Of a stretch of 64,000 nucleotides of DNA, positions 33,303-60,599 are shown one piece after another. Location: positions 62,001-126,000 of IMG/VR virus record IMGVR_UViG_3300049215_000771; one strand, given 5' to 3'. Under the pieces are notes generated by a model that did not search any database, was not told the DNA's origin, and saw nothing but the letters and a program-made list of their open reading frames with translations. Origin of the DNA: a virus. Numbering within the stretch: position 1 is the first letter of the stretch; every line of letters begins with the position of its first letter. A program made the position numbers and the translations under genes.

Positions 33303-33614
33303 ATGTTTTCCGCCGAAGATTTCACCGTTCAAAACTCGGAATTTCTCATCCGGCGTGGCTGGCGCATGTGGAGTCGTTCGGACTTGTTCGAGGGCAAGAT
33401 GTTGTTGCTTTGCCCGGTGGATGATTTCAAGAACATCCCCAAGGGAACCAGGATGACGCATATTTGCGGTGGACATGCGGTGAAGGGCAAAGACAAGATC
33501 ACAATGGACCACAAGGGCGGCGTGCTGGCTTACGGCATTTTGCTGGAAGACATCATTGTTCCCGACGAGAACAAGAAGTACCGAAGCATCGACGATTTTT
33601 CCGAACCTGGCTAA
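33303..33614 (+). CDS. Small protein with C-terminal KYRSIDD tag
   Basis: 103 aa from ATG 33303 (GGAG at good spacing). Strand-rich body (RRGWRMWSRSDLFEGKMLLL, GTRMTHICGGHAVKG). The last residues are KKYRSIDDFSEPG, a peptide shared with three other unrelated genes in this window. Function unknown. Confidence 0.65.
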   Translation: MFSAEDFTVQNSEFLIRRGWRMWSRSDLFEGKMLLLCPVDDFKNIPKGTRMTHICGGHAVKGKDKITMDHKGGVLAYGILLEDIIVPDENKKYRSIDDFSEPG

Positions 33615-33694
33615 TCGGCTAAAGTCCCGCCCAGCTTTGGTCGATATTACTGTAGAACGACAACGTAACTTTCAACAACGAACAGGAAACCATC

Positions 33695-35356
33695 ATGGGA
33701 CGTAAACTCGAAAAGTCCACCTACCCATCCGGCCACGGCCCGAACGATTTCCAGTGTTTCGGCCCGCCCGCCACCGAAGACGGGAATTTCGACACCTGCA
33801 AGATCGCCGACATGGGTTCCTTCTCCCAAGAGGAGAAAGATTCCAACAAGTATTATCACGCCGCCGTCGTCAAGTCGAAGATCAACGGCAACTACTACAC
33901 CTACTTCGAGTGGGGCCGGGTCGGGGCGTCCAAACCTGCTTTCCAGTTTGTCGAGTGTGGCAGCGAGGCCGACGCCCAGCGGGAATTCGCCGATCAGTGC
34001 CACGAGAAGAACGACAAGCGTGGCGTTTGGACAACCGTGGCGGGCCATCGCACGCTGACGGCCAAACCCAAGAAGGACGTGTATCTCGTCCGCCAACTCG
34101 CCACCCGTTCCACGGGTCTGCCCGATGCCAAAACCATCAAGCACACTGAGGGCGCAAAGCCGAAGCCGAAGCCCGGCAAGCCCGACGATGCCAGCGCTAC
34201 CGACAAGCCGACGAAGAAGGAAGCGAAACCAGCGGCCCCAGCCCGTCGTGCCGATCCAGTCACCAGTAAATTGCTTCAGGATTTGATCGGCGGCACGATC
34301 TCCTACACCCGTGGGAGCATGGCCGACGACTCGATTCCGACGCAAAATGCCATCGACATCGCTCGTGATGTTCTCACCGAGGCCGAGAAGCGACTGTTGA
34401 AGGTCGGCAACAGCCTCGATGACCAGATCGCCGACAAGGAACTTCGCCAGTTGTCCGGGGAACTGTACCGTCGCATCCCGAAGAAGAAGCCGGTTGGGAC
34501 GCCGGACAAGGTGTGGATTCTGTCCAGCGAGAATATCTTCTCCTGGCGGAACGACCTGGACGCCTTCGAGTCGGCGTTGTCGGCCCAGGCCGGCATTGAC
34601 GAACAGGCCGGTCAGGTTGCCGATCCCTTCCACGGCCTGCCCCTCACGATGGAATACATCGACCCGAAAACGGAACTCGGCAAGTTCCTCTACTTCTGGT
34701 GGCCGAAGGCGACGGCCAATCGCCACTACCACCTGAAAGACATGAAGATCAAGAATATGTGGAAGGTGGACCGCTTCGGCGACCCGGAGAAGGTTCGCCG
34801 CTCGCAGGACCGCATCGCCACCGAGATCGGCAAGGCGGCGCTGAAGGAACGGCCCTTGTTCCAGCCGTCCGAACGCTACGATGTTCCCGACATCAACGAG
34901 CGCAAGCTGTTCGGTCAGACCAACACGGCGCTGTTGTTTCACGGCACCCGTTCCGTCAACGTGAAGGGCATCTTGGAGAAGTCGCTGTTGCTGCCGAAGC
35001 AACTGGTCGGCGTTTCCATCAACGGGGCCATGTTTGGCCCTGGTCTGTATTGGGCCGATGACTGGAAGAAGTCGGCAGGCTACACCAGCTTGTCGGGTTC
35101 GCTCTACTCGGCGGGCTATGGCGGGGTTGCCGGTCGCCATGCCTTCATGTTCGCCGCCGATGTCGTCGTGGGGCAGCCACACGTTGCTCCTGGGCCGCAC
35201 GGTTATACCAGCCCGCCGAAGGGCCATCACTGTGTCTTCGGTATGGGCCGCAACCACACCAGCAGCCGCCAGAACAGCGGCGTGGAGAACAACGAGTGGA
35301 TCGTGTTCTCCGGTGAACAGTGCCGTCTCCGCTACCTGGCGGAATTCACGGCGTAA
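33695..35356 (+). CDS. Poly(ADP-ribose) polymerase with WGR domain
   Basis: 553 aa, PARP1/2-like order. WGR domain about residues 45-120 (W73-G74-R75 in YFEWGRVGASKPAF). Low-complexity Lys/Pro linker 150-185. Regulatory helical domain about 190-300 (SKLLQDLIGGTISYTRGSM, LRQLSGELYRRIP). Catalytic domain about 320-553: LLFHGTRSVNVKGIL (H416), FGPGLYWADDWKKSAGYTS (Y452/Y463) and ENNEWIVFSGEQCRLRYL (E534), so the H-Y-E triad for polymer synthesis is complete. Uses NAD+ to modify proteins or nucleic acids. ADP-ribosylglycohydrolases at 42579 and 60635 could reverse it. Target unknown. Confidence 0.93.
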   Translation: MGRKLEKSTYPSGHGPNDFQCFGPPATEDGNFDTCKIADMGSFSQEEKDSNKYYHAAVVKSKINGNYYTYFEWGRVGASKPAFQFVECGSEADAQREFADQCHEKNDKRGVWTTVAGHRTLTAKPKKDVYLVRQLATRSTGLPDAKTIKHTEGAKPKPKPGKPDDASATDKPTKKEAKPAAPARRADPVTSKLLQDLIGGTISYTRGSMADDSIPTQNAIDIARDVLTEAEKRLLKVGNSLDDQIADKELRQLSGELYRRIPKKKPVGTPDKVWILSSENIFSWRNDLDAFESALSAQAGIDEQAGQVADPFHGLPLTMEYIDPKTELGKFLYFWWPKATANRHYHLKDMKIKNMWKVDRFGDPEKVRRSQDRIATEIGKAALKERPLFQPSERYDVPDINERKLFGQTNTALLFHGTRSVNVKGILEKSLLLPKQLVGVSINGAMFGPGLYWADDWKKSAGYTSLSGSLYSAGYGGVAGRHAFMFAADVVVGQPHVAPGPHGYTSPPKGHHCVFGMGRNHTSSRQNSGVENNEWIVFSGEQCRLRYLAEFTA

Positions 35357-35370
35357 CCATCACGATGATC

Positions 35371-35404
35371 TAACGGAGTGGGATGGAAAATTCCCACTCC
35401 GTTA
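35371..35404 (+). repeat. 13-bp inverted repeat after the PARP gene
   Basis: TAACGGAGTGGGA (35371-35383) and its reverse complement (35392-35404) enclose an 8-nt loop. No T-run follows; could be a weak terminator or an RNA-processing hairpin just upstream of the next ribosome site. Confidence 0.7.
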
Positions 35405-35417
35405 CTTGGAGGAAACC

Positions 35418-36668
35418 ATGAGAAACGAAGAACAGGCCAAGCAACTCTACATCCCGGAGAAGTTGGCAGTCGGGTTCCAGAAACGTGAAGGAACCTACAA
35501 CGGGATGCTGGCCTACGTCATCTACTACGACAAGACCGGGACGCTTCGGAAAGAAAAATCCTGGCAGTCGTGGCGTGACAAGAAGATCAAGGCGCAGGAG
35601 ATCGAGAACAAGCCCACCGAAGGCTTCGTCCTCAACAAGAAGGTCGGCGGCTACAAGTCGCACTGGAACTTCCGGGACGCCCACGTTCGGGTGTACGATC
35701 CCAGGGGTTTCGAGTTCGAGATTTCAGTCCCGAACCTGTTGTTCATCCTCCGTGAAGGGGCTTGCTCGCCCGGCAAGGGGTTGGAAGGCCAGTTCGTGTA
35801 CGCCTGGGAAGGCACCGAGTTGGTGTTGCTGCCCTGCCATTCGGTGGACTACAAGAACAGCCAGAACTTCACCGACCTTCAGGGCAAGTCGGTCGGGGCG
35901 AAGGAACTGAAGGAAGGGGTGACGTACCTCACGAAAAAGCAGGAGGAACTGACCTACCTGGGCAAGTTCGACTACCACTTCCAGTACAATATCGCCCGCA
36001 ACCACTACTACGGGATGCAGTCGTATGCTCACTACAGGGGCTATGACGTGAACGAGGAGTGGAAGCACCCGCCCAAGAAGGACCAGAAGGGCGTCGTCAA
36101 GCGCTACGTTTTCTGGAATGGCAAGGAATTCGTCTACCTGAACGATCTCAAGTCGCTCGGTACGGCCAAGGACGACGGCGTTCATCCCGACTTCGCCGAG
36201 TTGGTGGACAAGTACAACAAATCCCCGCACGGCAGCAAGGTGGTGAAACTCTTCTTGAAGGAAGTCCCCGGCAAGAAGAACCCCGACCACTGGCAGAACC
36301 AGGAAGAAGACTGGTTCTACGAGGACTCGGACGGCACGTTTGTCGAATGCCAGACCTATTACGCCTGGAACAGCGCCCGCAACAAGCGTGACGTGATCGA
36401 ATACATCCAGGCACAGGCCAAGTGGTATATCGACGAGAAGACCGGCCTGCTGACCAGGAAGGAATACAACGCCATCTGTTATTCCAAGGACGTGGAACAG
36501 AAAAACAGGCAGGAGTACAACCACAAGACCGGGCGATACGAAACCATCAAGAACACGATGGAATGGCGTGAGCCGACGAACTTCCGCCTGTTCGCCCAAA
36601 CCGAGAACGGCGGCAAGCATCGGGCTTGTGGGCCGAGCTACAAGAACGCTTTCGAGAAGGAAAAATAA
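35418..36668 (+). CDS. Protein of unknown function, 416 aa
   Basis: TTGGAGG precedes ATG 35418. The sequence is rich in aromatic residues, Lys and short strands, with repeated W/Y-x-x patterns (YVFWNGKEFVYLNDLKSL, WQNQEEDWFYEDSDGTF). It is soluble, with no known motif. The composition is similar to the 372-aa protein at 62488. It may be a structural or internal virion protein; no evidence. Confidence 0.7.
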   Translation: MRNEEQAKQLYIPEKLAVGFQKREGTYNGMLAYVIYYDKTGTLRKEKSWQSWRDKKIKAQEIENKPTEGFVLNKKVGGYKSHWNFRDAHVRVYDPRGFEFEISVPNLLFILREGACSPGKGLEGQFVYAWEGTELVLLPCHSVDYKNSQNFTDLQGKSVGAKELKEGVTYLTKKQEELTYLGKFDYHFQYNIARNHYYGMQSYAHYRGYDVNEEWKHPPKKDQKGVVKRYVFWNGKEFVYLNDLKSLGTAKDDGVHPDFAELVDKYNKSPHGSKVVKLFLKEVPGKKNPDHWQNQEEDWFYEDSDGTFVECQTYYAWNSARNKRDVIEYIQAQAKWYIDEKTGLLTRKEYNAICYSKDVEQKNRQEYNHKTGRYETIKNTMEWREPTNFRLFAQTENGGKHRACGPSYKNAFEKEK

Positions 36669-36847
36669 TGGCCCATCGTGGCTATTACGGTGGCCGAAAG
36701 TCTCGTCTGAAACATTTGACGGGCGAGACTTTCGACACCGCTGCGAAGAAAAAACCAAAACGGCATCCAAACAAGGAGAAAGATCGTGGCAAAGACCGAC
36801 AAAAAGACACTCGAACTGATCGAGCAAGTGAAACGGGATCGGGCTGA
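36668..36847 (+). CDS. Small, highly basic protein
   Basis: 59 aa; ATG overlaps the previous stop (TAATG) with AAGGA upstream. Gly/Arg/Lys-rich (MAHRGYYGGRKSRLKHLTG), likely nucleic-acid binding. Overlaps the next gene by 62 nt. Confidence 0.45.
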   Translation: MAHRGYYGGRKSRLKHLTGETFDTAAKKKPKRHPNKEKDRGKDRQKDTRTDRASETGSG

Positions 36848-37229
36848 AATCGCCAAGCTGGACAAGCCCAGCTACAAGACCAACTGCTCGTTCACCTACA
36901 TCGAAGGGAACCGGGGCAGCGCAACCAACATTCACGTCGAAACGGACGTGAAGAAACTGATCCTGATGGCGGCGTTCCTGACGGAGAAGGAAAATTCCTA
37001 CAAGGGAGCGGCCAAGCTGCTCGGTGTGGAGAAGATTCCTGATTTCACCTGGGACGGCTACACCGTCGCCGAATGGCTGCAAGACCTGAAGACCCGCATC
37101 AGCAAGGTTCAGATTTCCAGCAAGAAAGCGAAGCTGGAGGCGCTGGAAGCCCGGCTGAAGAAGATCATCAGCCCGGAACTTCAGGCCGAACTGGAACTGG
37201 CCGATATTGAGAAGGAGTTGGGGGACTAA
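36786..37229 (+). CDS. Protein of unknown function with coiled coil
   Basis: 147 aa from GTG 36786 (AAGGAG upstream). Helical; the C-terminal third (LKTRISKVQISSKKAKLEAL ... ARLKKIISPELQAELELAD) is predicted coiled coil by heptad pattern. Unknown role. Confidence 0.65.
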   Translation: MAKTDKKTLELIEQVKRDRAEIAKLDKPSYKTNCSFTYIEGNRGSATNIHVETDVKKLILMAAFLTEKENSYKGAAKLLGVEKIPDFTWDGYTVAEWLQDLKTRISKVQISSKKAKLEALEARLKKIISPELQAELELADIEKELGD

Positions 37230-37238
37230 TCTTGCCGC

Positions 37239-37270
37239 ACGACTGCCTGGGGAATTCCCCAGGCAGTCGT
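37239..37270. repeat. 32-bp perfect palindrome
   Basis: ACGACTGCCTGGGGAA (37239-37254) followed directly by its reverse complement (37255-37270). As RNA it makes a hairpin with almost no loop; as DNA it is a candidate protein-binding or cruciform site. It lies 10 bases after a stop codon. The rest of the gap to 37352 shows no clear promoter. Confidence 0.85.
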
Positions 37271-37352
37271 ATACCCCCTGCGAAAATATGCGAGTTTCCG
37301 AACCTAGTGGATATTCGCCGGTCTTCTGAGTAGAAAGGGGGTTACGTTACCC

Positions 37353-37559
37353 ATGAAAAGCAAGATCGTTCTGGAGCAGCACGGAGCTACGATTAGCCCT
37401 GTGCCAGCGGGCAAGGCACAATATGATGTCGTTGCCCTTCACAACCGCACTCGTCCCTTGATCGGCGAGACTCTGACCGAGGAAGACGTGAAGAAGCTGC
37501 TGGCCGATGCCCGTGGCAACTTGACCGTCGAGATCAAGCCGTCCAAGAAGCGGCGCTAA
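37353..37559 (+). CDS. Small protein of unknown function
   Basis: 68 aa with AAAGGGGG upstream. LIGETLTEEDVKKLLADARG and a basic end (KPSKKRR). Unknown. Confidence 0.6.
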   Translation: MKSKIVLEQHGATISPVPAGKAQYDVVALHNRTRPLIGETLTEEDVKKLLADARGNLTVEIKPSKKRR

Positions 37560-37602
37560 CCAACACCTTCAACCACCATCCAACAAAAAAGGAACCATCA
37601 AC

Positions 37603-38391
37603 ATGGCTACCGCAGGAGTCCGCCCCGTTGTCGAACAGGTCTGTGATGAGCAGGTCCACAACGGCGGCATGTTCACCGCCCACGATATTACCCTGGAGGT
37701 CCGCAACCGGGGGCATCGTGTGGGGCATCACGAAGTTCGAGACGCCGTTCACGACTATTTCGCTCGTGGCGGTATGGGTGTCGCATATACCCGCACCACT
37801 ATCAGCGTTCCCGCAGGTGGCACGCCCTTCCTGTATCACCGCACCGCCGACGATCCGGCCACTTACGGCAATATCCGTGGCGTCGGCCTGGTCCCCAATC
37901 CGTCCGTCAATACGATCTCCGTTCCGCCCCCGTCCAGTATCGCCAGCACCGATGACGACGAGGAAGACGACGAAGAAGATGAAGACGATGAAGACGACGA
38001 CGTGGTGGACCCCAGCGCCCTGGGCTTGCCCAATTCCGTTGCAGGCGTGGCCGTCGCAAGCCGGCCCAAGACTCACCACAAGTCCAAGTCGGCCAACAAG
38101 AACAAGCTGGTCGGTCGCACTGTTGATGGCCGTGCAACGCTGTCGTTGCCCTCGCCGTTGGTTCGGGCTGCTGGGTTCAATCCTGGCGACAAGGTGTACG
38201 CTACCGGCGTCCCTGATGGCGTGGAAGTCACCTTACACCCGACCAGTGCCGCCCTGTGTCGCAAATACACCGTGGACAACCACGGCCATATCCGCCTGAC
38301 GCAAGGTCTGTTGAAGCGTGCCGGCATTCCTGGTGGCGCTTACGATGTGTCGGGCGACAATACCAAGATCACGGTCAAACTTCACAAGTAA
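37603..38391 (+). CDS. Winged-helix plus AbrB-like regulator candidate
   Basis: 262 aa. Residues 1-60 look like a winged helix (MFTAHDITLEVRNRGHRVG, HHEVRDAVHDYF). Residues about 115-135 are an acidic D/E run. The C-terminal part has two similar swapped-hairpin-like segments (GRATLSLPSPLVRAAGFNPG and GHIRLTQGLLKRAGIPGG), as in AbrB/SpoVT DNA-binding folds. Probably a transcription regulator or chromosome-binding protein; inference. Confidence 0.65.
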   Translation: MATAGVRPVVEQVCDEQVHNGGMFTAHDITLEVRNRGHRVGHHEVRDAVHDYFARGGMGVAYTRTTISVPAGGTPFLYHRTADDPATYGNIRGVGLVPNPSVNTISVPPPSSIASTDDDEEDDEEDEDDEDDDVVDPSALGLPNSVAGVAVASRPKTHHKSKSANKNKLVGRTVDGRATLSLPSPLVRAAGFNPGDKVYATGVPDGVEVTLHPTSAALCRKYTVDNHGHIRLTQGLLKRAGIPGGAYDVSGDNTKITVKLHK

Positions 38392-38404
38392 CCAGAAAAC
38401 GGGC

Positions 38405-38433
38405 TTTACAACCAGGCTTTGCCGAAGTAATAT
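38405..38433 (+). promoter_or_regulatory. Promoter, TTTACA class
   Basis: -35 TTTACA (then ACCAGG), 17-bp spacer, -10 TAATAT (38428-38433), before the AAA+ ATPase. Confidence 0.72.
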
Positions 38434-38487
38434 CTGAGCATTGACAGCGAGCCTGGTTGTTATCCCAAATCACAACGGAGGATAGTG

Positions 38488-40164
38488 ATGAGCGACACCG
38501 TTACCCTGACCCTGGAAGAGTTGGAAGAAATCAAGGCCCAACTCGTCGAAATGGATGCCGTTCTCACTCGGCTCCTGGCCCAGCCCCTTGTTTATGCAAC
38601 GGTCGTGAAGGCCGACAACAAGTTTCATCTGGACGCCTTCGAGCAGGGCGACCGGATGTTGGTGATCGACAAGAACCTTCGCAAGCAGAAGAAGTTCTAC
38701 GGCAAGATCGCCAGCCAGGGCGTCGATGACGAGGGCTGGGTCATCTTGGAATATCCCACGGGCGGGCGTGACCGGCTCAACATCGGCCTCAACGGGGAAT
38801 TGCCGCAGGTGAAACTGATCGGCAAGGACGACGGCACCAACGTCGTCATCGCCCATGACGGCAAGCTGTTCGAGGTTCACGGCTTGCCGGGGAAGGAATT
38901 CCATCCGTCGTCCACCGTCAAGGTGGATATGGAAACGAAGCAAATCCACGACGATGCTGGCGTCAGCGCCGCTGGTGACGTGGCCTACATCAAGACCATC
39001 GTGGACGAGGAACACGTCGAAGTGGAGAGCAACGGCCACAGCCGGGTCGTCATCCACGGCGTCAAGGACGAGGAAGGCGAATCCGTCAAGATCGAGCCGG
39101 GCGACCGGGTGATGTTGGATCACACCAACACCATCACCGTCCGTGTTCTCGAAAAGGACAACGCCGACCGCTTCAACCTGATCGAGCAGCAGAACGTCAC
39201 CTGGGACCAGATCGCCGGCCTGGGCGACGTGAAGGAATCGCTCGTCGAAGCGCTGGAACTGCCCTACCAGCACCCGGACATCTTCAAGTTCTACAACAAG
39301 AAGCCGCCGAAGGGCGTGTTGCTCTACGGCCCTCCGGGTTGTGGCAAGACCCTGTGTGCCAAGGCCGCTGCCAACAGCATGGCCCGCATCCACGGCAAGG
39401 AAAACTACCAGTCCGGGTTCATTTACGTCAAAGGCCCGGAATTGTTGAGCAAGTGGGTCGGCCAGACCGAGGCCGAAATCCGCCAACTGTTCGTCCGTGG
39501 CCGGGAACACTACAAGAAGCACGGCTATCCCGCCTTGCTGTTCATCGACGAAGCCGACGCCATCCTCCCGATGAGGGGTTCCGGCAAGTCGTCGGACGTG
39601 GAAAATACCATCGTTCCGATGTTCCTGTCGGAAATGGACGGCCTGGAGGAAGCACACCTGATGGTGTTGCTCGCCACCAACCAGCCGAAGCGTCTGGACC
39701 CCGCCGTGACTCGTGAAGGTCGTGTGGACCGGAAGGTTCGTGTCGGTCGTCCGACCGCCAAGAACGCACACGAATACTTCAACCTGCACATGAAGGGGAT
39801 TCCGGTCGCCGAGGGGTTCGAGGCGGAAGAACTGACGGCCCTGACGATCCGTGACCTGTTCAGCGAGAAGCGGGGTCTGTACACCGTCCAGTACAAGAAG
39901 CAGACCCATCTGTTCAAGCTGGGCGATGCCGTCAGCGGCTCGATGATCGCAACCATCGTGGATCACGCCACGAGCCAGGCCATGAAGCGTGACCTGCACG
40001 CCGGCACGCAAACGGGTGTGAACCACACCGACTTCCAGGACGCCGTGAACGGAATCTTCAAGCATCACGTCGAACTCAACCCGACGTTCGATCTCGAAGA
40101 ATTCTGTGATGCCAACAGCATCAACCGGAACGAGGCGACGTTCTCGAAACTGGTTCACGCATAA
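38488..40164 (+). CDS. ARC/Mpa/PAN-like AAA+ proteasomal ATPase
   Basis: 558 aa. N-terminal coiled coil (LTLEELEEIKAQLVEMDAVL), then two OB-fold-like beta regions (about 35-230), then one AAA+ module: Walker A LLYGPPGCGKTLCAKAAA, pore-loop area YVKGPELLSKWVGQTEAE, Walker B LLFIDEADAILPMRG, arginine fingers near REGRVDRKVRVGRP. The layout is that of bacterial ARC/Mpa ATPases that feed the 20S proteasome. The C-terminus (SKLVHA) lacks the usual HbYX-type docking end, so a proteasome partner is doubtful. May unfold or remodel proteins by itself. Confidence 0.88.
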   Translation: MSDTVTLTLEELEEIKAQLVEMDAVLTRLLAQPLVYATVVKADNKFHLDAFEQGDRMLVIDKNLRKQKKFYGKIASQGVDDEGWVILEYPTGGRDRLNIGLNGELPQVKLIGKDDGTNVVIAHDGKLFEVHGLPGKEFHPSSTVKVDMETKQIHDDAGVSAAGDVAYIKTIVDEEHVEVESNGHSRVVIHGVKDEEGESVKIEPGDRVMLDHTNTITVRVLEKDNADRFNLIEQQNVTWDQIAGLGDVKESLVEALELPYQHPDIFKFYNKKPPKGVLLYGPPGCGKTLCAKAAANSMARIHGKENYQSGFIYVKGPELLSKWVGQTEAEIRQLFVRGREHYKKHGYPALLFIDEADAILPMRGSGKSSDVENTIVPMFLSEMDGLEEAHLMVLLATNQPKRLDPAVTREGRVDRKVRVGRPTAKNAHEYFNLHMKGIPVAEGFEAEELTALTIRDLFSEKRGLYTVQYKKQTHLFKLGDAVSGSMIATIVDHATSQAMKRDLHAGTQTGVNHTDFQDAVNGIFKHHVELNPTFDLEEFCDANSINRNEATFSKLVHA

Positions 40165-40177
40165 AAAATGCCGAACC

Positions 40178-40227
40178 AAACACAAAGACCCGGCGTCTCT
40201 CATGTAGACGCTGGGTCTTTTGTGTTT
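40178..40227 (+). terminator. Long intrinsic terminator
   Basis: A stem of about 20 bp (AAACACAAAGACCC ... GGGTCTTTTGTGTTT) with one G-T wobble closes a 7-nt loop. The descending arm runs straight into the -35 of promoter P40225. Confidence 0.88.
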
Positions 40228-40253
40228 ACAAGGCATGATTCTTGGGGTATGAT
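40225..40253 (+). promoter_or_regulatory. Promoter, TTTACA class
   Basis: -35 TTTACA, 17-bp spacer ending CTTGGGG, -10 TATGAT (40248-40253), six bases before ATG 40260. Confidence 0.72.
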
Positions 40254-40259
40254 ACAGCC

Positions 40260-41489: not shown

Positions 41490-41539
41490 AGCTATTTTCG
41501 CCCACGGATGGGCCTTCTTCACAACTAGGGGAAACGGAC

Positions 41540-41782
41540 ATGCCTGTATTCCGAGTTTGCAGTGGCGACCTGGATGTTACATTGACCCGGCAAACGCATC
41601 AGGAGGCGGCATCAGACGCTTTCGGTACTCTGCGTAGCGGAAACTTCGACAAGATGAAGCTAGGGGTGATGACCAGCGTGCTGGAGCTAGGCGACCCCGA
41701 CGAGTTGCCAGTGTTCATCGAAACCATGCACCTGGTCAAACTGAATGGACTGAACTACACCAACGCCGCAAGAAAGGGCTAA
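41540..41782 (+). CDS. Small protein of unknown function
   Basis: 80 aa from ATG 41540 (AGGGGA upstream); ATG 41486, overlapping the ligase stop, would add 18 residues. MPVFRVCSGDLDVTLTRQTH begins a strand-rich domain. Unknown, seemingly widespread in large phages (weak memory). Confidence 0.6.
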   Translation: MPVFRVCSGDLDVTLTRQTHQEAASDAFGTLRSGNFDKMKLGVMTSVLELGDPDELPVFIETMHLVKLNGLNYTNAARKG

Positions 41783-41783
41783 C

Positions 41784-42512: not shown

Positions 42513-42582
42513 CGCCCACGACCGGCCTGGATTCGGGAACGTCGTCGAAGCGGAGATCGAAGTGGAGGAAGAAGAAAGATGA
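42385..42582 (+). CDS. Small acidic protein
   Basis: 65 aa from ATG 42385 (AGGAG upstream). MKIVRHYNEEELKQLLTKAV then KEIKFRVTEQRD and an acidic tail. Overlaps the Nudix 3' end and the next ATG. Confidence 0.55.
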   Translation: MKIVRHYNEEELKQLLTKAVEFPQKNRQLKVKEIKFRVTEQRDAHDRPGFGNVVEAEIEVEEEER

Positions 42583-43580: not shown

Positions 43581-43581
43581 C

Positions 43582-45570: not shown

Positions 45571-46002
45571 ATGATGGACGTTTGCAACAACCGGAAGGCC
45601 CGCTATGATTACCATATCCTCGATACTGTCGAGGCGGGGATCGTATTGCAGGGCACTGAAGTCAAGGCTCTCCGGGCCAAACTTGCCTCATTGGAAGGTT
45701 CTTACGCCGTCATTCGTGACGGCGAAGTGTGGATGATTGGCTCTCATGTTGAAGAGTACGACCACGGCAACCATCACAACCACAACCCCAAGCGGGAGCG
45801 GAAGCTGTTGGTCAAGCGACACGACATCAAGAAACTTTCTGGTGAGGTTCGTGTGAAGGGAAAAACCCTCGTGCCCCTTCGCATTTACTTCTCCGGGCGC
45901 TGGGCCAAGGTGGAACTGGCGCTGGCGCAGGGCAAGCAGACGCACGATAAACGGCAAACCCTGAAAGAAAGGGAGCAGCGTAAGGAAATGAAGGGCTATT
46001 GA
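45571..46002 (+). CDS. smpB: SsrA-binding protein SmpB
   Basis: 143 aa, full length. NRKARYDYHILDTVEAGIVL, GTEVKALRAKLASLEGSYAV, EEYDHGNHHNHNPKRERKLL, KTLVPLRIYFSGRWAKVELA and the basic DKRQTLKEREQRKEM tail match SmpB throughout. SmpB carries tmRNA to stalled ribosomes. No tmRNA gene is visible here; it may lie elsewhere or be the host's. Confidence 0.95.
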   Translation: MMDVCNNRKARYDYHILDTVEAGIVLQGTEVKALRAKLASLEGSYAVIRDGEVWMIGSHVEEYDHGNHHNHNPKRERKLLVKRHDIKKLSGEVRVKGKTLVPLRIYFSGRWAKVELALAQGKQTHDKRQTLKEREQRKEMKGY

Positions 46003-46475
46003 TGGAGAATATGGATCGAATTGTCGAGGTATGTCAGCGCCTCAATTTTGAATCGGATAACTGGAATCTACGCTACGAATACGCTCAGTATTTTGAAGAT
46101 GCTGACATGGTGGAAGAATGCCTCGCCCAAAGGTGGATGGCCGACAATCAGAAATGTCCGGGTCCACCATGCGTTCAAGAAGCCCACCCAGGCGAGGCGA
46201 CCTGGTTTTCTGCGGAAAATAGGGAAGATATGCGGTGGTCTTTCCCTCATTTCGTTAAATGCGACAAGGTTGATAGGAAATGGTGTCTTCCTGTTGATAT
46301 TTTCAAAAGGCTGGATGGATTCATCACGGATCGGCGGGATGGAGGGTTTCACAACAAGTGGGCAAAATCTTGGAACAGTCGGACGGATGCGGAACTAGCC
46401 CTCGCTGCGGCCTTGCCACGAAGAAAAAGAAAGTTTCGGTCGATTGATGACAATTGGAGGGCGTCAGGTTGTTAG
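46002..46475 (+). CDS. Protein with TIGR02996-like segment and C-terminal KFRSIDD tag
   Basis: 157 aa; ATG overlaps the smpB stop. LNFESDNWNLRYEYAQYFED then ECLAQRWMADNQ resembles the TIGR02996 segment abundant in Gemmata-type planctomycetes. The C-terminus RRKRKFRSIDDNWRASGC carries the tag shared with three other genes. Ends with TAG. Confidence 0.65.
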   Translation: MENMDRIVEVCQRLNFESDNWNLRYEYAQYFEDADMVEECLAQRWMADNQKCPGPPCVQEAHPGEATWFSAENREDMRWSFPHFVKCDKVDRKWCLPVDIFKRLDGFITDRRDGGFHNKWAKSWNSRTDAELALAAALPRRKRKFRSIDDNWRASGC

Positions 46476-51317: not shown

Positions 51318-51321
51318 GTGC

Positions 51322-51350
51322 TTTACAATCGTGGCACTTCGGGGTAGTAT
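51322..51350 (+). promoter_or_regulatory. Promoter, TTTACA class
   Basis: -35 TTTACA, 17-bp spacer ending TTCGGGG, -10 TAGTAT (51345-51350), six bases before ATG 51357. Confidence 0.75.
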
Positions 51351-51356
51351 AGGCTC

Positions 51357-52357: not shown

Positions 52358-52739
52358 GGCTGGGGCCAACCCTTACTTTGGCAAGGCGTGGAATTGCAAC
52401 ATCGAAAAATACCACCCGCAGACGGAAACGCCTGTTGGGACGCCTTGCTCGTATTGTGACGAAGAAATCGTGGAGGGCGACCAGGGATTCATCATCCCGC
52501 ATGGTGAAGCCATTACGCAAAACCAAGAAGGTGTCTTCGATCAGATGGTTGCGGTGTTCCGCCCCGTCCATCTCGATTGCTTCCTCCGACAAATCTTCGG
52601 GTCTGTTGGGCATCAGAAGAAAACCTGTTCGTGTTTCGGCGGCACTGAAGAAGACCCGCCCGGCATGACGAAACGTGAAGCAGCTTCGGCGGCAGTGAGA
52701 ATGTACGAGTCCCAATATCTGCGAGGAGTTCCACAGTGA
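52347..52739 (+). CDS. Protein with zinc-binding Cys pairs
   Basis: 130 aa. TPCSYCDEEIVEGDQGFIIP, PVHLDCFLRQ give a C-x2-C ... H-x2-C zinc-binding pattern like LIM/treble-clef-type fingers. Unknown role. Confidence 0.6.
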   Translation: MDDKAGANPYFGKAWNCNIEKYHPQTETPVGTPCSYCDEEIVEGDQGFIIPHGEAITQNQEGVFDQMVAVFRPVHLDCFLRQIFGSVGHQKKTCSCFGGTEEDPPGMTKREAASAAVRMYESQYLRGVPQ

Positions 52740-54817: not shown

Positions 54818-54826
54818 TACCCAGGT

Positions 54827-54868
54827 AACACCCTGGCTGCGCCGCCTTCGCAGCCAGGGTGTTTTTGT
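54827..54868 (+). terminator. Intrinsic terminator
   Basis: 15-bp stem AACACCCTGGCTGCG / CGCAGCCAGGGTGTT followed by a T-rich run. Confidence 0.92.
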
Positions 54869-54883
54869 TTCTGGAGTTTCAAC

Positions 54884-55579
54884 ATGCAAGTCTGGCTTGA
54901 ACCTATTGAGATGGTCGGGGCATCAGTTCCGATCCCCGCCGTTCTCACACGAATTCAACTGGCGTGTTGTGATGCCGGGTTTCAAAGTCAGAAACTCAAC
55001 CAAATTCTCAATGAAGCCTGCATGGTCATGCCCGGCAATCTCGAACAAGCCAAGGGCAACTACGATCCTAGCGTTTACGCTATGGAGGTTATACAAACCG
55101 AGCGTATTCGAGTGGGATTTTTCGACAGGCTCCGTGATGCTCTCGATGAAGTTGCCCAGGCCGCTGGGGACACGATTGATTGGTGTCTGTTATTCATGGA
55201 TTACGACATCCATTTCGCTCGGCATGACGCCTTCGTGAACGGCCTGAAATGTTTTCCGTACTTGGAATGCTATCTTGTTGTCGCCGACGCCGACTCGCCA
55301 TTGATGAACAACTGGAGGAATCCACGGAAATTATCGGTACAAGTTATCACAGAGGCCACACTGCAAACAATGGCCCCCTCGATGGGTTTCCAGAATCCGA
55401 TTGGAATTCAAGGCATATTTGCGCAACAACCATTGCCGGCCCCAGCAGCGAGTGGTAATATGCCCGCTGTCTCGCCTTCTGGTTGGCTGAATGACTATGA
55501 AGACCCTGAAGAAGTGGAAGAAGTGGTCAAGCCACAACCAAAGCCCAAGACAAAATATCGGAGCATCGACGACCCGTGA
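54884..55579 (+). CDS. Protein with C-terminal KYRSIDD tag
   Basis: 231 aa. Helical N-terminal half (IQLACCDAGFQSQKLNQILN), MEVIQTERIRVGFFDRLRDA, then DWCLLFMDYDIHFARHDAFV. C-terminal linker rich in Glu/Val/Lys/Pro ends TKYRSIDDP, immediately at the stop. Three other genes share this end. Confidence 0.65.
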   Translation: MQVWLEPIEMVGASVPIPAVLTRIQLACCDAGFQSQKLNQILNEACMVMPGNLEQAKGNYDPSVYAMEVIQTERIRVGFFDRLRDALDEVAQAAGDTIDWCLLFMDYDIHFARHDAFVNGLKCFPYLECYLVVADADSPLMNNWRNPRKLSVQVITEATLQTMAPSMGFQNPIGIQGIFAQQPLPAPAASGNMPAVSPSGWLNDYEDPEEVEEVVKPQPKPKTKYRSIDDP

Positions 55580-55589
55580 GGATTATGTC

Positions 55590-56207
55590 ATGTGGCGAAA
55601 ATTTATCTGGCTGCTTCGACGATTGATCGGGCGGAAACTGCCTCCTGCCCCTGCTACGCTGCCAAAAGGCACCAGATACTACAATCCCAATATCGAAGCA
55701 GGACGTTTCGGCGTCCTGGTTGTGGAGAAGGAACCGACACCGAGGACAATTTTCGGAGCAAGGGGGACGACGCATTACTTGGCGTTTCCGTATATTGTAT
55801 TTATCATTCGATTTTCGGTGCAGCATCGGAGCGGCAAGCCGGTGTATATTTTCGATCACCTGCAAGTTGGTTTCTCGATGACTTCATTGACTTCTGCCAA
55901 TGATTATATTTCTGCATTGCCGCTCTCAAATTACGAGGGCAGTTTGCCCCTTGGTGTGTGTTTGGGAGAAGGGCCAGCAAGGTACAGGCACAGTTACTCC
56001 AGTTACGATTCGCCCGAAGAAATGGCGAACTCAATCATCGCTTACTACTGGTCCAGTAGCTTCACGAAACTGCAACCTGAAGAAATGAAACGCTGGGCCA
56101 AGAAATCACCAGACAAGTTGTCCAAGTTGTTCTACAACACCGACACGCTGCGGCGGATTGCAATGCTTCCAAAACACGAGGAGTTGGGCTATGGGACACA
56201 GCACTGA
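55590..56207 (+). CDS. Putative Prok-E2-type (UBC-like) protein, copy 1
   Basis: 205 aa from ATG 55590. HYLAFPYIVFIIRFSVQH, then ANDYISALPLSNYEGSLPLG, VCLGEGP and SPEEMANSIIAYYWSSSFTK. The last two segments resemble the V-C-L-G and F-x-S-x-F-T/N motifs of Prok-E2 family D/PRTRC-B proteins (UBC-like fold, some in ubiquitin-like systems). Paralogous to 59666 over its whole middle. No E1-like gene is nearby, so enzymatic role is uncertain. Confidence 0.6.
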   Translation: MWRKFIWLLRRLIGRKLPPAPATLPKGTRYYNPNIEAGRFGVLVVEKEPTPRTIFGARGTTHYLAFPYIVFIIRFSVQHRSGKPVYIFDHLQVGFSMTSLTSANDYISALPLSNYEGSLPLGVCLGEGPARYRHSYSSYDSPEEMANSIIAYYWSSSFTKLQPEEMKRWAKKSPDKLSKLFYNTDTLRRIAMLPKHEELGYGTQH

Positions 56208-56691
56208 GCAGCATGTTCGAGTCGGCACGAGCATCATCGTGGTTCGTGAGGGCAAGGTGTTGGCGGGCCGGCGAAAAGGGTCGCACGCCGAAGGTTTGAT
56301 CTCTTTCCCTGGCGGGCATCTCGATTTTGGTGAGACTTGGGAAAAATGTGCCTTCCGAGAACTCGAAGAAGAATGTGGGGACCAGTTACAGGTAAAGTTG
56401 AGGCCGCAAGCTAACATTGCCTCGCTTGGTCAGTCGCCGCCTGTCGGCCCACTAAGCTGGCGGCTGGACTGGTTCACTACGAACGACATCATGCCTCAGT
56501 ACGGCAAGCACTACATCACGATCTTCATGGTCGCTGATTGGGTTTCCGGGGAGGCTATCAATACCGAGCCTGACAAGTGTGAGGGCTGGGAATGGATCAC
56601 CTTCGACGAACTGAAGGCGCTGGGTGATAAGGCCGCTCAGTGGATTCCCATCAACCTCATCGAAGCCTACCGAGGAAGGATTGGCATATGA
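56191..56691 (+). CDS. Nudix hydrolase, NUDT15/MutT-like
   Basis: 166 aa from ATG 56191. VGTSIIVVREGKVLAGRRKG precedes the Nudix box GGHLDFGETWEKCAFRELEE ECG. Layout close to NUDT15/MTH3 nucleotide-sanitising enzymes that remove oxidised or modified dNTPs. Overlaps both neighbours by a few bases. Confidence 0.88.
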   Translation: MGHSTEQHVRVGTSIIVVREGKVLAGRRKGSHAEGLISFPGGHLDFGETWEKCAFRELEEECGDQLQVKLRPQANIASLGQSPPVGPLSWRLDWFTTNDIMPQYGKHYITIFMVADWVSGEAINTEPDKCEGWEWITFDELKALGDKAAQWIPINLIEAYRGRIGI

Positions 56692-57248
56692 TGTTTGCTG
56701 ACGCTGAAGGGGTTATCTCGTCGATCCCCTGGGTTTTCGTCATTGTGGTTGTTGGCATTTTCCTCTTCATCAAGATCGGGTTGCCAATGATCCGTGGTTC
56801 TGCCGCAGGGCAGGCCAACAACATGACGTTCCACACGACGGAGCAACTGGAAGAAGAAATCCACAACTTCAATTACGATACCGCCGCCAAGAGCGCCACG
56901 CTCACGCCACACGAGATTTACTTGATGAAACAGGCTGGCTACGAGCCTGTGCAGATCGTGTTTGGCAACGTGGTTTACAGCATGGGCGTGGCTGGTTTGT
57001 TTCGCACTATTGTCCGTGCCTTCACTCGTGGTGAGATGTACGATTTCACCAGGCTCAACAAGGACGCCCGCCAGCTTGCCCGCAATCGCCTTCTGGCCGA
57101 GGCTCACGAACTCGGCGCTGACCATGTGTTCGGCGTGGTTTTCGACACGAAGGAATACGCCGATTTTATCGAGATCATCGCCACCGGCACTGCCTGCAAG
57201 AAGGTGAGTGAAGGTGTCGTCAACCAGCAAATCGCAGTGGGCGTATGA
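56688..57248 (+). CDS. Membrane-anchored YbjQ/UPF0145-like protein
   Basis: 186 aa. N-terminal membrane helix (IPWVFVIVVVGIFLFIKIGL), then the YbjQ-like domain: VQIVFGNVVYSMGVAGLF, ARQLARNRLLAEAHELGADH, IEIIATGTA. YbjQ proteins form pentamers and have unclear, possibly metal-linked, function. ATG overlaps the Nudix stop. Confidence 0.8.
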   Translation: MMFADAEGVISSIPWVFVIVVVGIFLFIKIGLPMIRGSAAGQANNMTFHTTEQLEEEIHNFNYDTAAKSATLTPHEIYLMKQAGYEPVQIVFGNVVYSMGVAGLFRTIVRAFTRGEMYDFTRLNKDARQLARNRLLAEAHELGADHVFGVVFDTKEYADFIEIIATGTACKKVSEGVVNQQIAVGV

Positions 57249-57841
57249 GATTCAAACCGGAAGACATTGACCCGTTGTTGTTGAGATTGATTGTTGATCT
57301 CAACAACAACGGGCTTTTAACTACAGGTTGCTGCCAGGGCAGAAGGACCGCCGAAGAGTTTTATGTGGCCCAGGAACTATCCCAGCGAGGCATCCCTGCG
57401 TCCATAAAACGAAGCATCAAGCGTTTTCTCTCCATGAGAATCAGCGATTGGTTGTACCGTGTAGACCGGGCCACACGGGAAAAACAAGAACAAGAATACA
57501 AATACAGAAAACGATACCACTCACCGGAAGCCTATGTTGGTTTCTGGCCGGCTTTGCCTGCGTCAATCGAAGAATACGCTCGGTCGGTAGGGTTGTATGT
57601 CTATGGCGGCAATGACATGACAGGGATGGCGAGCATTCGTGTATGCTCTCCTCCAGGGGAGCCAGGAGCCGTTGTCGGTTACAAAGGCCCAAGATATAAC
57701 TTCATCGCCGAATCGTGGACCAAAGAAGGCATTGAACTGGTCATCAAGGCTAATGAAGCCTTCGGCGAGAAAATGTACAGGGTGTTGGAATATGCTACCA
57801 GTGTTCATCAAAGCCAGAAGGATTCATCGACGGCATACTAA
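57245..57841 (+). CDS. Protein with GCCQGR motif
   Basis: 198 aa; ATGA overlap. LRLIVDLNNNGLLTTGCCQG is parallel to the GCCGGH protein at 51995. Middle basic helix (TREKQEQEYKYRKRYH). Unknown. Confidence 0.6.
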   Translation: MRFKPEDIDPLLLRLIVDLNNNGLLTTGCCQGRRTAEEFYVAQELSQRGIPASIKRSIKRFLSMRISDWLYRVDRATREKQEQEYKYRKRYHSPEAYVGFWPALPASIEEYARSVGLYVYGGNDMTGMASIRVCSPPGEPGAVVGYKGPRYNFIAESWTKEGIELVIKANEAFGEKMYRVLEYATSVHQSQKDSSTAY

Positions 57842-57860
57842 TCTAGTCACCGACAGTGGT

Positions 57861-58139
57861 ATGTTGTGTAGCTGGATTCACTGGCCCAAGAACTTCATCA
57901 AGAATTTGTTCACCGAAGGTTATCGTTTTCTCAAGAACGATATTTTCGGATGGAACCTGGGTGCTATGGCCTGGGTCCAGTGGTTCCTCGTATTGTCGCC
58001 GTTCGCCTTTCACGGCTGGAGCGGTGGCTGGGAACATTTGTGGAACCACAACGCTCCAGTCATTTTTATCCTGTTCCTGGCAGCGTTTTTCAGTCGGTCT
58101 AAATCAAGGCGCACCAGTTGTGGCAACGATGACGACTAG
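57861..58139 (+). CDS. Membrane protein of unknown function
   Basis: 92 aa from ATG 57861; weak ribosome site. Basic aromatic start (IHWPKNFIKNLFTEGYRFLK) and two hydrophobic segments (AMAWVQWFLVLSPFAF, PVIFILFLAAFFS). Ends with TAG; the next gene lies in the same frame 17 codons on, but a promoter fills the gap. Confidence 0.55.
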   Translation: MLCSWIHWPKNFIKNLFTEGYRFLKNDIFGWNLGAMAWVQWFLVLSPFAFHGWSGGWEHLWNHNAPVIFILFLAAFFSRSKSRRTSCGNDDD

Positions 58140-58142
58140 GAC

Positions 58143-58171
58143 TTTACAACCATACCGAAACGGGGTATTAT
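58143..58171 (+). promoter_or_regulatory. Promoter, TTTACA class
   Basis: -35 TTTACA (then ACC), 17-bp spacer ending ACGGGG, -10 TATTAT (58166-58171). The -10 covers ATG 58170, which excludes that codon as start of the next gene. Confidence 0.78.
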
Positions 58172-58190
58172 GCGGGAGGAGGACAGACCG

Positions 58191-58745
58191 ATGGATTTTG
58201 AGGTTCCCGCCAACGTCGAGATTCATAAGCAAGCCATTCCGGGCGGGTGGTCTTACCCGCTCAAAACCAGCGAGATTGTGACCGCCCTTGACCTGGGCGA
58301 TCTGGATAAGAAGATCGACATTTTTTATATGAACGACCGTCCAGGTCCAACCCTTCCTCGCAACCAGAAGAAATACCGCTCCGAGGGGTGGTTCAACATT
58401 TTTTCCATCACCTGGTATGGGCATATGCGTAAGTCCGAGATGCACTTCTTCATGGGTGTGCATCTTTGCAAGCCCAAGTACCGGCAGCGGCTCAACAAAA
58501 TCATCACAGAAGAAGTGTTCCCGGTCATTAAGCCCTGGATGAAAGATGTTGGGAGATTACCAAACATCAACAGCATCTCCCTCGACTATCACACCTTCTT
58601 CCCCAAACCCGGCGTGTACCAAAAACTGGAATGGGGTTTGGAACTGCGAGAGAACAAGGACCACCGCAAGTGGTTCAAAGTCATCGACCTGGACAAGAAG
58701 GAAGGCGAAGATGAAGGCGCAGAAGGGACAGTTCTGGCGACGTAA
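58191..58745 (+). CDS. Protein of unknown function
   Basis: 184 aa from ATG 58191 (GGAGGAGG upstream). Body: YGHMRKSEMHFFMGVHLCKP, ISLDYHTFFPKPGVYQKLEW; acidic tail. Not recognised. Confidence 0.68.
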   Translation: MDFEVPANVEIHKQAIPGGWSYPLKTSEIVTALDLGDLDKKIDIFYMNDRPGPTLPRNQKKYRSEGWFNIFSITWYGHMRKSEMHFFMGVHLCKPKYRQRLNKIITEEVFPVIKPWMKDVGRLPNINSISLDYHTFFPKPGVYQKLEWGLELRENKDHRKWFKVIDLDKKEGEDEGAEGTVLAT

Positions 58746-59148
58746 TCACGAGTGTATTTGGGTCCGTTTCGTTTTTGGTATTGAGGATGATACCGTTCAC
58801 TTCTTGGAATATCAACCCAATGGTGTCGTGCCATACCGTGGTTCCGAGAAGATGTACGAAGAAGACGAAGATTACCCTTCCTGGGTTCAGATCAGCGCCC
58901 CGGAAGCGGAGTTGTTGATTGTCAACATGAAGGATCAGGACACCGAGTACAGCTATCGCCTGGGGAAGAAGGCTGACGCCGAAAAATTGGCCCAGGCGTT
59001 GAAGATACTGGAACGGAAGAAGGTATCGTCGGTTTGTATCCGTGACAACGTGGTTCGTATATCGACCGACAACGGGGCAGAATACGAGATCGCTTTGACG
59101 AGGGATGGGTATTCGAGCAGGCAGACTGGCCTGCCTGACCCGTGGTGA
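58711..59148 (+). CDS. Protein of unknown function
   Basis: 145 aa from ATG 58711 (GGAAGGCG upstream), overlapping the previous gene by 35 nt. Strand-rich, with AEKLAQALKILERKKVSSVC. Unknown. Confidence 0.62.
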   Translation: MKAQKGQFWRRNHECIWVRFVFGIEDDTVHFLEYQPNGVVPYRGSEKMYEEDEDYPSWVQISAPEAELLIVNMKDQDTEYSYRLGKKADAEKLAQALKILERKKVSSVCIRDNVVRISTDNGAEYEIALTRDGYSSRQTGLPDPW

Positions 59149-59157
59149 GGAAAAGCC

Positions 59158-59388
59158 ATGCCGAGGATTAAGTCGGGCGTTCAGAAGAAGCGCAAAAACT
59201 TCGATATTGCTGTCAAGCATCTCGATATGCTTGAGTATATCAAGAAGAAGCACAACATGGATTCTGACACGGAAGCCGTGCGTTGGTGCATTGCTCACAC
59301 TTTCTCCGTTGAAAAAATGGAGGAAGACAGCATCCAAATGCGGTTCGTAGATAAAGAAGGGAAAATTCGTGGAGTGATCTTCCTTTAA
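59158..59388 (+). CDS. Ribbon-helix-helix-like small protein
   Basis: 76 aa. Basic start (PRIKSGVQKKRKNFDIAVK) then HLDMLEYIKKKHNMDSDTEA and VRWCIAHTF, which fits the strand-helix-helix order of RHH repressors. Located just before the tRNA pair; may be a local regulator. Confidence 0.6.
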   Translation: MPRIKSGVQKKRKNFDIAVKHLDMLEYIKKKHNMDSDTEAVRWCIAHTFSVEKMEEDSIQMRFVDKEGKIRGVIFL

Positions 59389-59392
59389 GACT

Positions 59393-59463
59393 GCCCCGTT
59401 GGTACATTGGCTGTGCCGTGGCCTCTAAAGCCACAGAAGTCGGTTCGATTCCGGCACGGGGTA
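59393..59463 (+). tRNA. tRNA with CUA (amber) anticodon, first of a pair
   Basis: 71 nt. Acceptor GCCCCGT/ACGGGGT (G-U at the first pair), D stem GTAC/GTGC, anticodon arm GTGGC-CTCTAAA-GCCAC with CTA at 59425-59427, T arm GTCGG-TTCGATT-CCGGC. The 7-nt loop is identical to that of the E. coli supF amber suppressor. It reads UAG; charging amino acid unknown. Confidence 0.85.
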
Positions 59464-59466
59464 CAA

Positions 59467-59539
59467 GCCCTGGTAGCTCAGTGGTCAGAGCGGTTGACTC
59501 TAAATCAACGTGTCGTGGGTTCGATCCCCACCCAGGGCG
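59467..59539 (+). tRNA. tRNA with CUA (amber) anticodon, second of a pair
   Basis: 73 nt, three bases after the first tRNA. Acceptor GCCCTGG/CCAGGGC, D stem GCTC/GAGC, anticodon arm GTTGA-CTCTAAA-TCAAC with CTA at 59500-59502, T arm GTGGG-TTCGATC-CCCAC, discriminator G. The body differs clearly from the first, so the pair is not a simple recent duplication. Confidence 0.88.
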
Positions 59540-59560
59540 CTGCATATCATAGGGAGGTTC

Positions 59561-59656
59561 ATGATGAGACTTCGTTTCCACGAACAGGTTCCCACTATTG
59601 GCGGTTCCTACAGCGGGTATCACGGCGGTTGGCGAACTTCCGAGTCGCTTCTTTAA
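59561..59656 (+). CDS. 31-aa ORF resembling the start of the following gene
   Basis: ATG 59561 follows GGGAGG. Begins MMRLRFHEQVP, close to MRLRFQHDNVE at the start of 59666, and ends after a Gly/Ser/Tyr-rich stretch. May be a remnant of a duplicated gene or a small peptide. Confidence 0.4.
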   Translation: MMRLRFHEQVPTIGGSYSGYHGGWRTSESLL

Positions 59657-59665
59657 GGTCGTCCG

Positions 59666-60262
59666 ATGAGACTGAGATTCCAACACGACAATGTGGAGGA
59701 TGGCCAGGGCTGCGGTACAATTCTAAGTTTGGAACCACAGTTCCGTACCATCTACACAATGGGTAACGGGTATAGCACACGCAGTAGGTACGATGGAAAC
59801 ATTGTTACCCTGCCGTGGCCACATTTGATCTTTGTGTTTCGCTACACGAAGGTTGAGGGCGGCTATATGTATGGTGGTTTGTACGGCAACGGCCTGCGGG
59901 TGTTGTTGAAATCGGAGCCACTGCGCTCTTTCGATGACCTGGTGGCATACGCTCCTACCGAACATCACGGTGGAGGGCTGGCGTGTACCGATCATGGATG
60001 GGATAATTCCTTGTTCAAAAACCCACAGGAGTTGATGGGAACGATTCTGGAGATTTGGTGGGGGAGCGCCCATCACATGCGTCCGCCTCTCGACATTTCT
60101 GCATGGAAGAAGATGTCGGTAGAAGAAGTCGTAACCTACAAGTGGGGAGAAGTTGCCAAACTTTCTACCTTGCTGCCGTTTTCTGGCGAACTTATCGACA
60201 AGGACGTTGGTATTCTTCCAAGTGTGTTGAAAAAAGGACCGAAATTGTATGGCCGCAGATGA
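59666..60262 (+). CDS. Putative Prok-E2-type (UBC-like) protein, copy 2
   Basis: 198 aa. TLPWPHLIFVFRYTKVEGGY, EPLRSFDDLVAYAPTEHHGG, ACTDHGW and NPQELMGTILEIWWGSAH align in order with the 55590 protein. The Cys in ACTDHG sits where VCLGEG lies in copy 1. Same reservations about enzymatic role. Confidence 0.58.
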   Translation: MRLRFQHDNVEDGQGCGTILSLEPQFRTIYTMGNGYSTRSRYDGNIVTLPWPHLIFVFRYTKVEGGYMYGGLYGNGLRVLLKSEPLRSFDDLVAYAPTEHHGGGLACTDHGWDNSLFKNPQELMGTILEIWWGSAHHMRPPLDISAWKKMSVEEVVTYKWGEVAKLSTLLPFSGELIDKDVGILPSVLKKGPKLYGRR

Positions 60263-60599
60263 TTGGGTTGGGAAACGCTTTCCAGAACCGCCTGAACGCC
60301 TCACCCGTCCATACTTTGACCCTGACCATGTTGGTCGGGGTTATTGTATGTACTGCCGTGACGATCACGACAGTCCCGGACCAGTTTTCATGTGGCGAGA
60401 TAACAACACCCTTCTTCTCAAGCCAGGCCACATGAACTGTGTTTTGTGTGGGCAGCGGTACTTCGCCGAACTTGAAGACTTGGAATTGTTGTGTGGTTTT
60501 CCGCCCACGATGAACAACATCTACGATTTCGAGACGATCTACGCCCGGTGGAAGGCTCGCTACCGTTCCATTGACGACCCCTGGCAATCCAGTTCTTAG
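60249..60599 (+). CDS. Small Cys-pair protein with C-terminal RYRSIDD tag
   Basis: 116 aa. YCMYCRDDHDSPGPVFMW and MNCVLCGQRYFAELE form two CxxC knuckles of a zinc-binding fold. The end ARYRSIDDPWQSSS is the fourth copy of the shared tag. TAG stop. Overlaps the E2-like gene by 14 nt. Confidence 0.68.
   Translation: MAADDWVGKRFPEPPERLTRPYFDPDHVGRGYCMYCRDDHDSPGPVFMWRDNNTLLLKPGHMNCVLCGQRYFAELEDLELLCGFPPTMNNIYDFETIYARWKARYRSIDDPWQSSS

Follow-up and report, generated by a model that had tools for sequence, protein, structure and literature searches.

A short RSIDD peptide tag on small proteins of a huge T4-type phage, some of them fragments of its own core proteins

The window analysed here, a stretch of 64,000 nt of viral DNA, comprises bases 62001-126000 of the IMG/VR record IMGVR_UViG_3300049215_000771 (record length 532,729 bp; hereafter G000). 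G000 is a T4-type huge phage with a gp23-like capsid protein, a gp20 portal, a gp21 protease and a gp55-like late sigma factor; a T4-type RNA ligase and a PARP are also encoded within the window. No close named relative by DNA similarity was found in the phage collection searched. Here we describe a short peptide, RSIDD, that ends four proteins of the window and recurs on dozens of small proteins of this phage. An earlier note on this DNA had reported the peptide as always C-terminal, and six-frame translation of the window confirmed this: RSIDD occurs exactly four times, every copy at a C-terminus.

All four genes lie on the + strand. The first (33303..33614) encodes a small protein of 103 aa ending in KKYRSIDDFSEPG, followed by the stop at 33614; its tag at 33582..33596 uses the codons CGA AGC ATC GAC GAT, and a putative early-type promoter lies two genes upstream. 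The second (46002..46475, 157 aa) ends in RKFRSIDDNWRASGC (also given as RRKRKFRSIDDNWRASGC) with the stop at 46475, and its tag at 46437..46451 is encoded by CGG TCG ATT GAT GAC. In the third (54884..55579, 231 aa), a linker rich in P and K precedes the end TKYRSIDDP (also given as KPQPKPKTKYRSIDDP; stop at 55579), the tag being located at 55559..55573 with the codons CGG AGC ATC GAC GAC. The fourth protein (60249..60599, 116 aa) contains CxxC pairs, from which it appears zinc-ribbon-like when judged by eye; it ends in ARYRSIDDPWQSSS (also given as KARYRSIDDPWQSSS; stop at 60599) and carries its tag at 60564..60578 (CGT TCC ATT GAC GAC). The distance from RSIDD to the stop is 1-7 residues in these copies, which corrects the range of 0-7 given before. 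None of the four bodies matched a Pfam family or a core phage hidden Markov model (HMM).

Genes of G000 were predicted with our own self-trained hexamer-based gene caller, yielding 861 genes and 92% coding sequence; the C-termini of called genes are fixed by stop codons, and the starts are approximate. Proteins matching [YWHF]R[STN]ID[DEA] were defined as carriers and are named by their G000 position. There are 39 carriers, with a median length of 103 aa compared to 143 aa for all genes. Among the 861 predicted proteins RSIDD is the top-enriched 5-residue pattern (31 observed versus 0.09 expected), and a degenerate DNA pattern for the tag gave 38 matches versus none for the reversed-pattern control, which rules out a chance origin. 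The scan of the genome and its relatives for C-terminal RSIDD that the earlier note had proposed thus returned dozens of copies in G000, and the peptide is kept in homologues.

The tag consists of a stretch with 43% Lys/Arg (12% in the genome), followed by Y/W/H/F, R, S/T, I, D, D/E/A, often P-W-E, and the stop; the linkers N-terminal to it are often rich in proline and charged residues. One form of the tag peptide is KKKKYRSIDDPWE, and the consensus reads [K/R-rich linker]-[YWHF]-R-[ST]-I-[D/N/T]-[D/E/A]-x-W. Nine or fewer residues follow the tag in 35 of the 39 carriers, most of them having one, or about 4-9, residues after the five-residue motif. In four carriers (18099, 140650, 478594 and 524328) the tag is internal or near the N-terminus; hence, a free C-terminus is not required. 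All six Arg and all six Ser codons are used within the tags at roughly background frequency, and orthologous tags of different phages differ in their codons. A conserved DNA element was therefore rejected, and the view that the peptide rather than the DNA is conserved was upheld by the codon spread, the pattern counts and the enrichment. The tag is a short linear motif at the peptide level, present on about 40 small proteins, mostly C-terminal and in some cases internal or N-terminal.

Enrichment, reversed control and codon diversity together argue well for a shared docking or targeting tag, one of the roles suggested before. A protease site, also suggested, is unlikely because D/N/T and D/E/A are tolerated at core positions and Pro often comes next. 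Mimicry of a host motif was rejected, as YRSIDDPW followed by D or E was not matched exactly in any of 84,980 genomes of bacteria and archaea; YRSIDDPW alone gave five scattered matches there. In an alignment we noticed a possible likeness between the tag and HSIDAEAEL, a segment of gp23 that is conserved in some T4-like phages.

The earlier description of the four proteins as unrelated holds inside the window; across the whole genome, roughly one carrier in four can be recognised as a fragment of a core protein of the phage. BLAST and HMM comparison identified approximately 11 of the 39 carriers as partial copies of core proteins of the same phage. Six are fragments of the capsid protein gp23, whose full-length gene is located at G000 338843-340279: 58150 (residues 53-105), 453477 (257-311), 517817 (316-370), 351369 (403-443), 518270, a chimera of SpoVR 53-81 and capsid 436-463 (the latter also given as 437-463), and 524328 (307-420), which has the tag at its N-terminus. 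Carriers 36315, 18099 and, weakly, 13759 are fragments of the gp32 single-stranded DNA-binding protein (SSB), 247046 is the C-terminal domain of PrkA and 200293 is a weak case of a tail sheath N-terminus. Carrier 238157 is a copy of the gp21 protease in which both the GELDHP His and the SSRG Ser are changed. We take these residues to be catalytic from established knowledge of T4 gp21, and with both lost the copy should be enzymatically dead; no solved-structure homologue of this copy by itself was found. Pfam and PHROGs independently name Gp23, Peptidase_S77, PrkA (C-terminal domain) and SSB among the carriers. Restricted to families with full-length homologues in related phages, core-protein fragments make up 7 of 39 tagged and 6 of 594 untagged small proteins (p=2.6e-6; related genes were counted as independent in some of the p-values reported here). 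The bodies are short and some are chimeric, so binding appears possible for them and the job of the parent does not.

The capsid fragments are old. Compared with the full capsid gene, their synonymous sites are saturated (pS 0.69-0.98) and 50-88% of the residues are identical over 23-70 aa, with the exception of 524328 (35%); together these values indicate constraint to resemble the capsid protein. The fragments resemble the capsid proteins of G000, of its relative G004 and of LR756511.1 to about the same degree, and are far from T4-like capsid proteins outside this clade. They therefore derive from the clade's own gene, and capture from a distant rival phage was not seen. Another idea is that the carriers have no common function and are gene debris, or that a mobile 3' end was spread through the genome. 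Carriers are small, some are chimeric and they are often adjacent (6 pairs versus 1.7 expected, p=0.006), as such an origin would predict. However, the tags keep their peptide although their codons have diversified fully, also between orthologues of different phages, the bodies are under purifying selection, and the same capsid regions are tagged in several phages; we regard this explanation as very improbable.

More than 300 relatives were identified in IMG/VR by their capsid protein, most of these records being genome fragments of uncertain completeness. RSIDD is at background level in most large relatives; where the tag is present, it is again found on capsid fragments. Tagged capsid segments occur in G004 (343 kb; residues 421-440), G006 (400-446), G038 (414-472 and 243-303) and G012 (398-465 and 246-314, with the diverged tag RSI[N/T]D[D/P]W), and by alignment only in G002 (IMGVR 3300045125_000119; about 427-445); L276 has a C-terminal capsid piece ending in KFRSIDDPWLSF, as read by eye. 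Taking G004, G006, G038 and G012 together, capsid fragments account for 6 of 11 tagged and 2 of 796 untagged proteins (p=3e-11), and these two begin with a second motif, MKN[YH]WL. Two regions of the capsid protein are tagged recurrently, approximately 237-314 in three phages and approximately 398-472 in six by alignment, plus one in a seventh. Of the tagged cargo that can be recognised, pieces of the phage's own capsid protein are the most frequent, both in G000 and in at least six relatives; pieces of gp32, gp21, PrkA, SpoVR and others come next. G004 also encodes a tagged SSB copy (99953) and a tagged piece of a conserved protein without known function (150121; parent phrog_5931). A further tagged protein of G004 (130161-130838), which matches G000_31434 at 3.5e-6, has repeats that by eye resemble the C-terminal domain of ribosomal protein L7/L12. 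In G002 several tags lie in very short open reading frames and the coding density is 72%, which suggests frame errors in its assembly.

Small proteins also bear another tag, M[KR]N[YHFV]W[LI], at the N-terminus, with D/N and K/R frequently coming next. Its DNA pattern was found 4 times in G000, 6 times in G004, 7 times in LR756511.1 and 10 times in a 390-kb relative, with no match for the reversed controls and none in four T4-like phages outside the clade; among the genomes searched by pattern, it is confined to this capsid clade. Pieces of the capsid protein, of the gp20 portal, of the gp55 late sigma factor and of the gp19 tail tube are again among the bodies. Sites are G000 242010, 286352, 286677, 287081 and 378486, G004 245132 and 162703, L292 7212, L295 5936 and 6385, L267 11928, and G038 12653. 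As side observations on the portal, small proteins of three phages share a portal peptide (approximately residues 505-539), and the gp20 gene of G000 (330903-333470) contains an intein-like insert.

Two upstream sequence elements give indications on timing. An early-type element, TTTACA-N15-18-TAnnAT, was derived from its enrichment upstream of genes, and a late-type element, TATATAC(C), is likewise enriched upstream and resembles the T4 late promoter (G000 306519, 324153, 335178, 446531 and others); from their form and the genes downstream, both are probably promoters. Tagged genes are depleted in the late/structural region at 260-460 kb (4 of 39 versus 246 of 861, p=0.01). A further early promoter candidate reads TTTACAACC-N-GTATCAT. 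A leader element, TTTCCGAACCT-stem-AGGTCTTCC, perhaps an RNA hairpin, is repeated upstream of genes at G000 213-230 kb (e.g. 216721 and 219386), where a second leader, TTTGTACCCTA, alternates with it; the first is also scattered in the window at 33600, 37297 and 44344.

Capsid packaging had been proposed as a role of the tag, which would then be a cargo-loading signal sending proteins into the prohead for ejection into the next cell. Encapsulin cargo peptides are short, terminal and placed on a flexible linker, and the motif described here is unlike those known to us. In T4, the capsid-targeting sequence of internal proteins is N-terminal and is removed by gp21. The likeness to T4 is a short tag shared by many small proteins of a T4-type phage; the difference is that the RSIDD tag is mostly C-terminal and does not have the T4 arrangement of an N-terminal peptide with an LxE-type cleavage site. 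G000 does encode T4-like N-terminal look-alikes of capsid-targeting sequences, which sit on other genes and are tied to the late element (3 of 13 versus 25 of 810, p=0.008). Look-alikes and carriers are essentially different gene sets, the sole overlap being 453477, which is linked to a late element and starts in capsid-like sequence. Encapsulins have a dedicated cargo-loading mechanism for an HK97-fold shell (PMC8346489). There as here, a short conserved peptide on unrelated proteins is linked to an HK97-fold shell protein; the HK97-fold capsid protein is the most frequent partner of the tag, and in several phages a tagged gene, mostly a capsid fragment, lies about 4-13 kb from the capsid gene. 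In the phages, however, much of the recognisable cargo consists of fragments of the shell and other phage proteins, and any binding of the tag inside the shell would be putative. Given the separate look-alikes with late promoters, the avoidance of the late region by tagged genes and the tagging of the capsid protein's own fragments, which packaging leaves unexplained, this role is less likely, and we consider it improbable.

A tag for degradation or localisation, read by an unfoldase (ClpX- or ARC-like) or a phage compartment, would suit a short C-terminal peptide on many proteins, and both a phage ClpX-like protein (20884..22230, + strand; so named from reading its sequence, with a match to phrog_4339) and an AAA ATPase (38488..40164, + strand; PF00004), the ARC-like unfoldase of the earlier note, are encoded inside the window. 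Neither is supported as the reader. ClpX has a 58% identical full-length homologue in LR756511.1, which lacks the RSIDD tag, and none in the tag-bearing G004, which is possibly incomplete; tag and ClpX did not co-occur in this comparison, which concerned phage and not host ClpX. The AAA ATPase has only partial, weak homologues in tag user (G004) and non-user (LR756511.1) alike. Among known systems, ssrA/ClpX degrons and their adaptors likewise involve C-terminal peptide tags common to many proteins. Recognition of such degrons at the extreme C-terminus does not fit a tag that is followed by 1-9 or more variable residues, has internal and N-terminal copies and appears position-independent, and a degron would not explain why the capsid likeness of the bodies is kept. 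Such a role thus seems slightly less probable still than cargo loading.

Other candidate readers were considered as well. The protein encoded directly 3' of the first tagged gene (window 33695-35356) combines WGR and PARP catalytic domains and is 61% identical to a homologue in LR756511.1. PARP was not supported as reader by co-occurrence with the tag, having a full-length homologue in LR756511.1 and none in the possibly incomplete G004. Gene 349334 lies near tagged genes in three phages, yet it is also present in G018, whose examined part shows no tag. No obvious candidate emerged for a reader gene shared by G000 and G004 and absent from LR756511.1, G030 and the examined part of G018.

We favour the reading, with a probability of roughly 40%, that the tag is a docking motif on competitive mimics, or decoys, of core phage proteins. 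The tag would dock all carrier mini-proteins onto one common partner, the fragments would capture the factors that bind the genuine capsid, SSB or protease protein, and whatever was captured would be held on, or delivered to, the partner of the tag. The likeliest targets would be host anti-phage sensors of such proteins and, next, the homologues of these proteins in a related phage that co-infects the cell. Decoys are favoured because the bodies are too small or lack the residues for the parent's job and because tagged genes are mostly outside the late region. Host sensors are preferred as targets since immunity senses capsid protein and SSB, the parents with the most tagged fragments: CapRel responds to the capsid protein (PMC9712102) and AbpAB to phage SSB (PMC10732053), although these papers describe phage proteins as activators and not decoy fragments.

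Several points weigh against decoys. For about 27 of the 39 carriers, among them the four of the window, no parent could be recognised. Fragments of PrkA, SpoVR and gp55 also occur, and for these proteins no sensor is known to us. A consensus promoter lies directly upstream of just one or two of the 39 tagged genes, so early expression is deduced mainly from position. The related 595-kb phage LR756511.1 (W01) encodes five capsid fragments (125926, 195953, 306665, 430481 and 588014) without the RSIDD tag, one of them bearing the N-terminal tag, which means that such fragments can exist without RSIDD. A capsid fragment might also disturb the phage's own assembly, and both the docking partner and the targets of the fragments are putative.

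The main rival shares most of this evidence. In it, the fragments would be dominant negatives that poison a co-infecting T4-type phage, either at virion assembly or in late transcription, or that regulate the timing of the phage encoding them; the tag would anchor or remove poisoned complexes. Many parents have late functions (gp23, gp20, gp21, gp19 and gp55, the portal, tube and late-sigma fragments being N-tagged or untagged), the protease copy lacks its catalytic residues and the capsid fragments tile most of the capsid protein. There is also a precedent in Ty1 p22, a truncated Gag that poisons Ty1 particles in copy-number control (PMC4599808). In Ty1 as in the phage, a shortened form of the capsid protein is made as a protein in its own right, and the truncated copies found here are kept by selection. 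However, p22 is one fragment of one protein with no shared tag, whereas the phage has many fragments of many proteins with a common peptide and a putative inhibition. Fragments about equally close to the phage's own, G004 and LR756511.1 capsid proteins would be expected to poison the phage itself, SSB, PrkA and SpoVR are not assembly proteins, and some fragments have just 20-30 residues or so. We therefore hold dominant-negative interference to be a serious but rather unlikely explanation.

With the same reservation as for the decoy reading, a clade of huge T4-type phages may possess a tagged-mimic system, in which truncated copies of capsid, portal, protease, SSB, tail and late-transcription proteins, many of them on C-terminal RSI[D/N/T]DxW or N-terminal MKN[YHF]WL docking peptides, would act as decoys or inhibitors against host immunity or rival phages and be gained and swapped as modules. 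To our knowledge, no phage system with dozens of tagged small proteins, including many truncated copies of its own core proteins, has been described. A search of open-licence full texts for the RSIDD/YRSIDDP motif, C-terminal motifs of jumbo phages and capsid-fragment decoys returned nothing relevant. Making tagged mimics of its own proteins in this manner looks like a viral strategy that has not been described before. If the tagged self-fragments are decoys, a single genome would amount to a natural epitope map of the phage proteins, and the parts of them, that bacterial immunity senses; dominant negatives would instead point to phage-phage interference via protein fragments. Under either reading the tag would provide a direct biochemical handle on the hub and suggest a function class for many of the "unknown" small proteins of huge phages.

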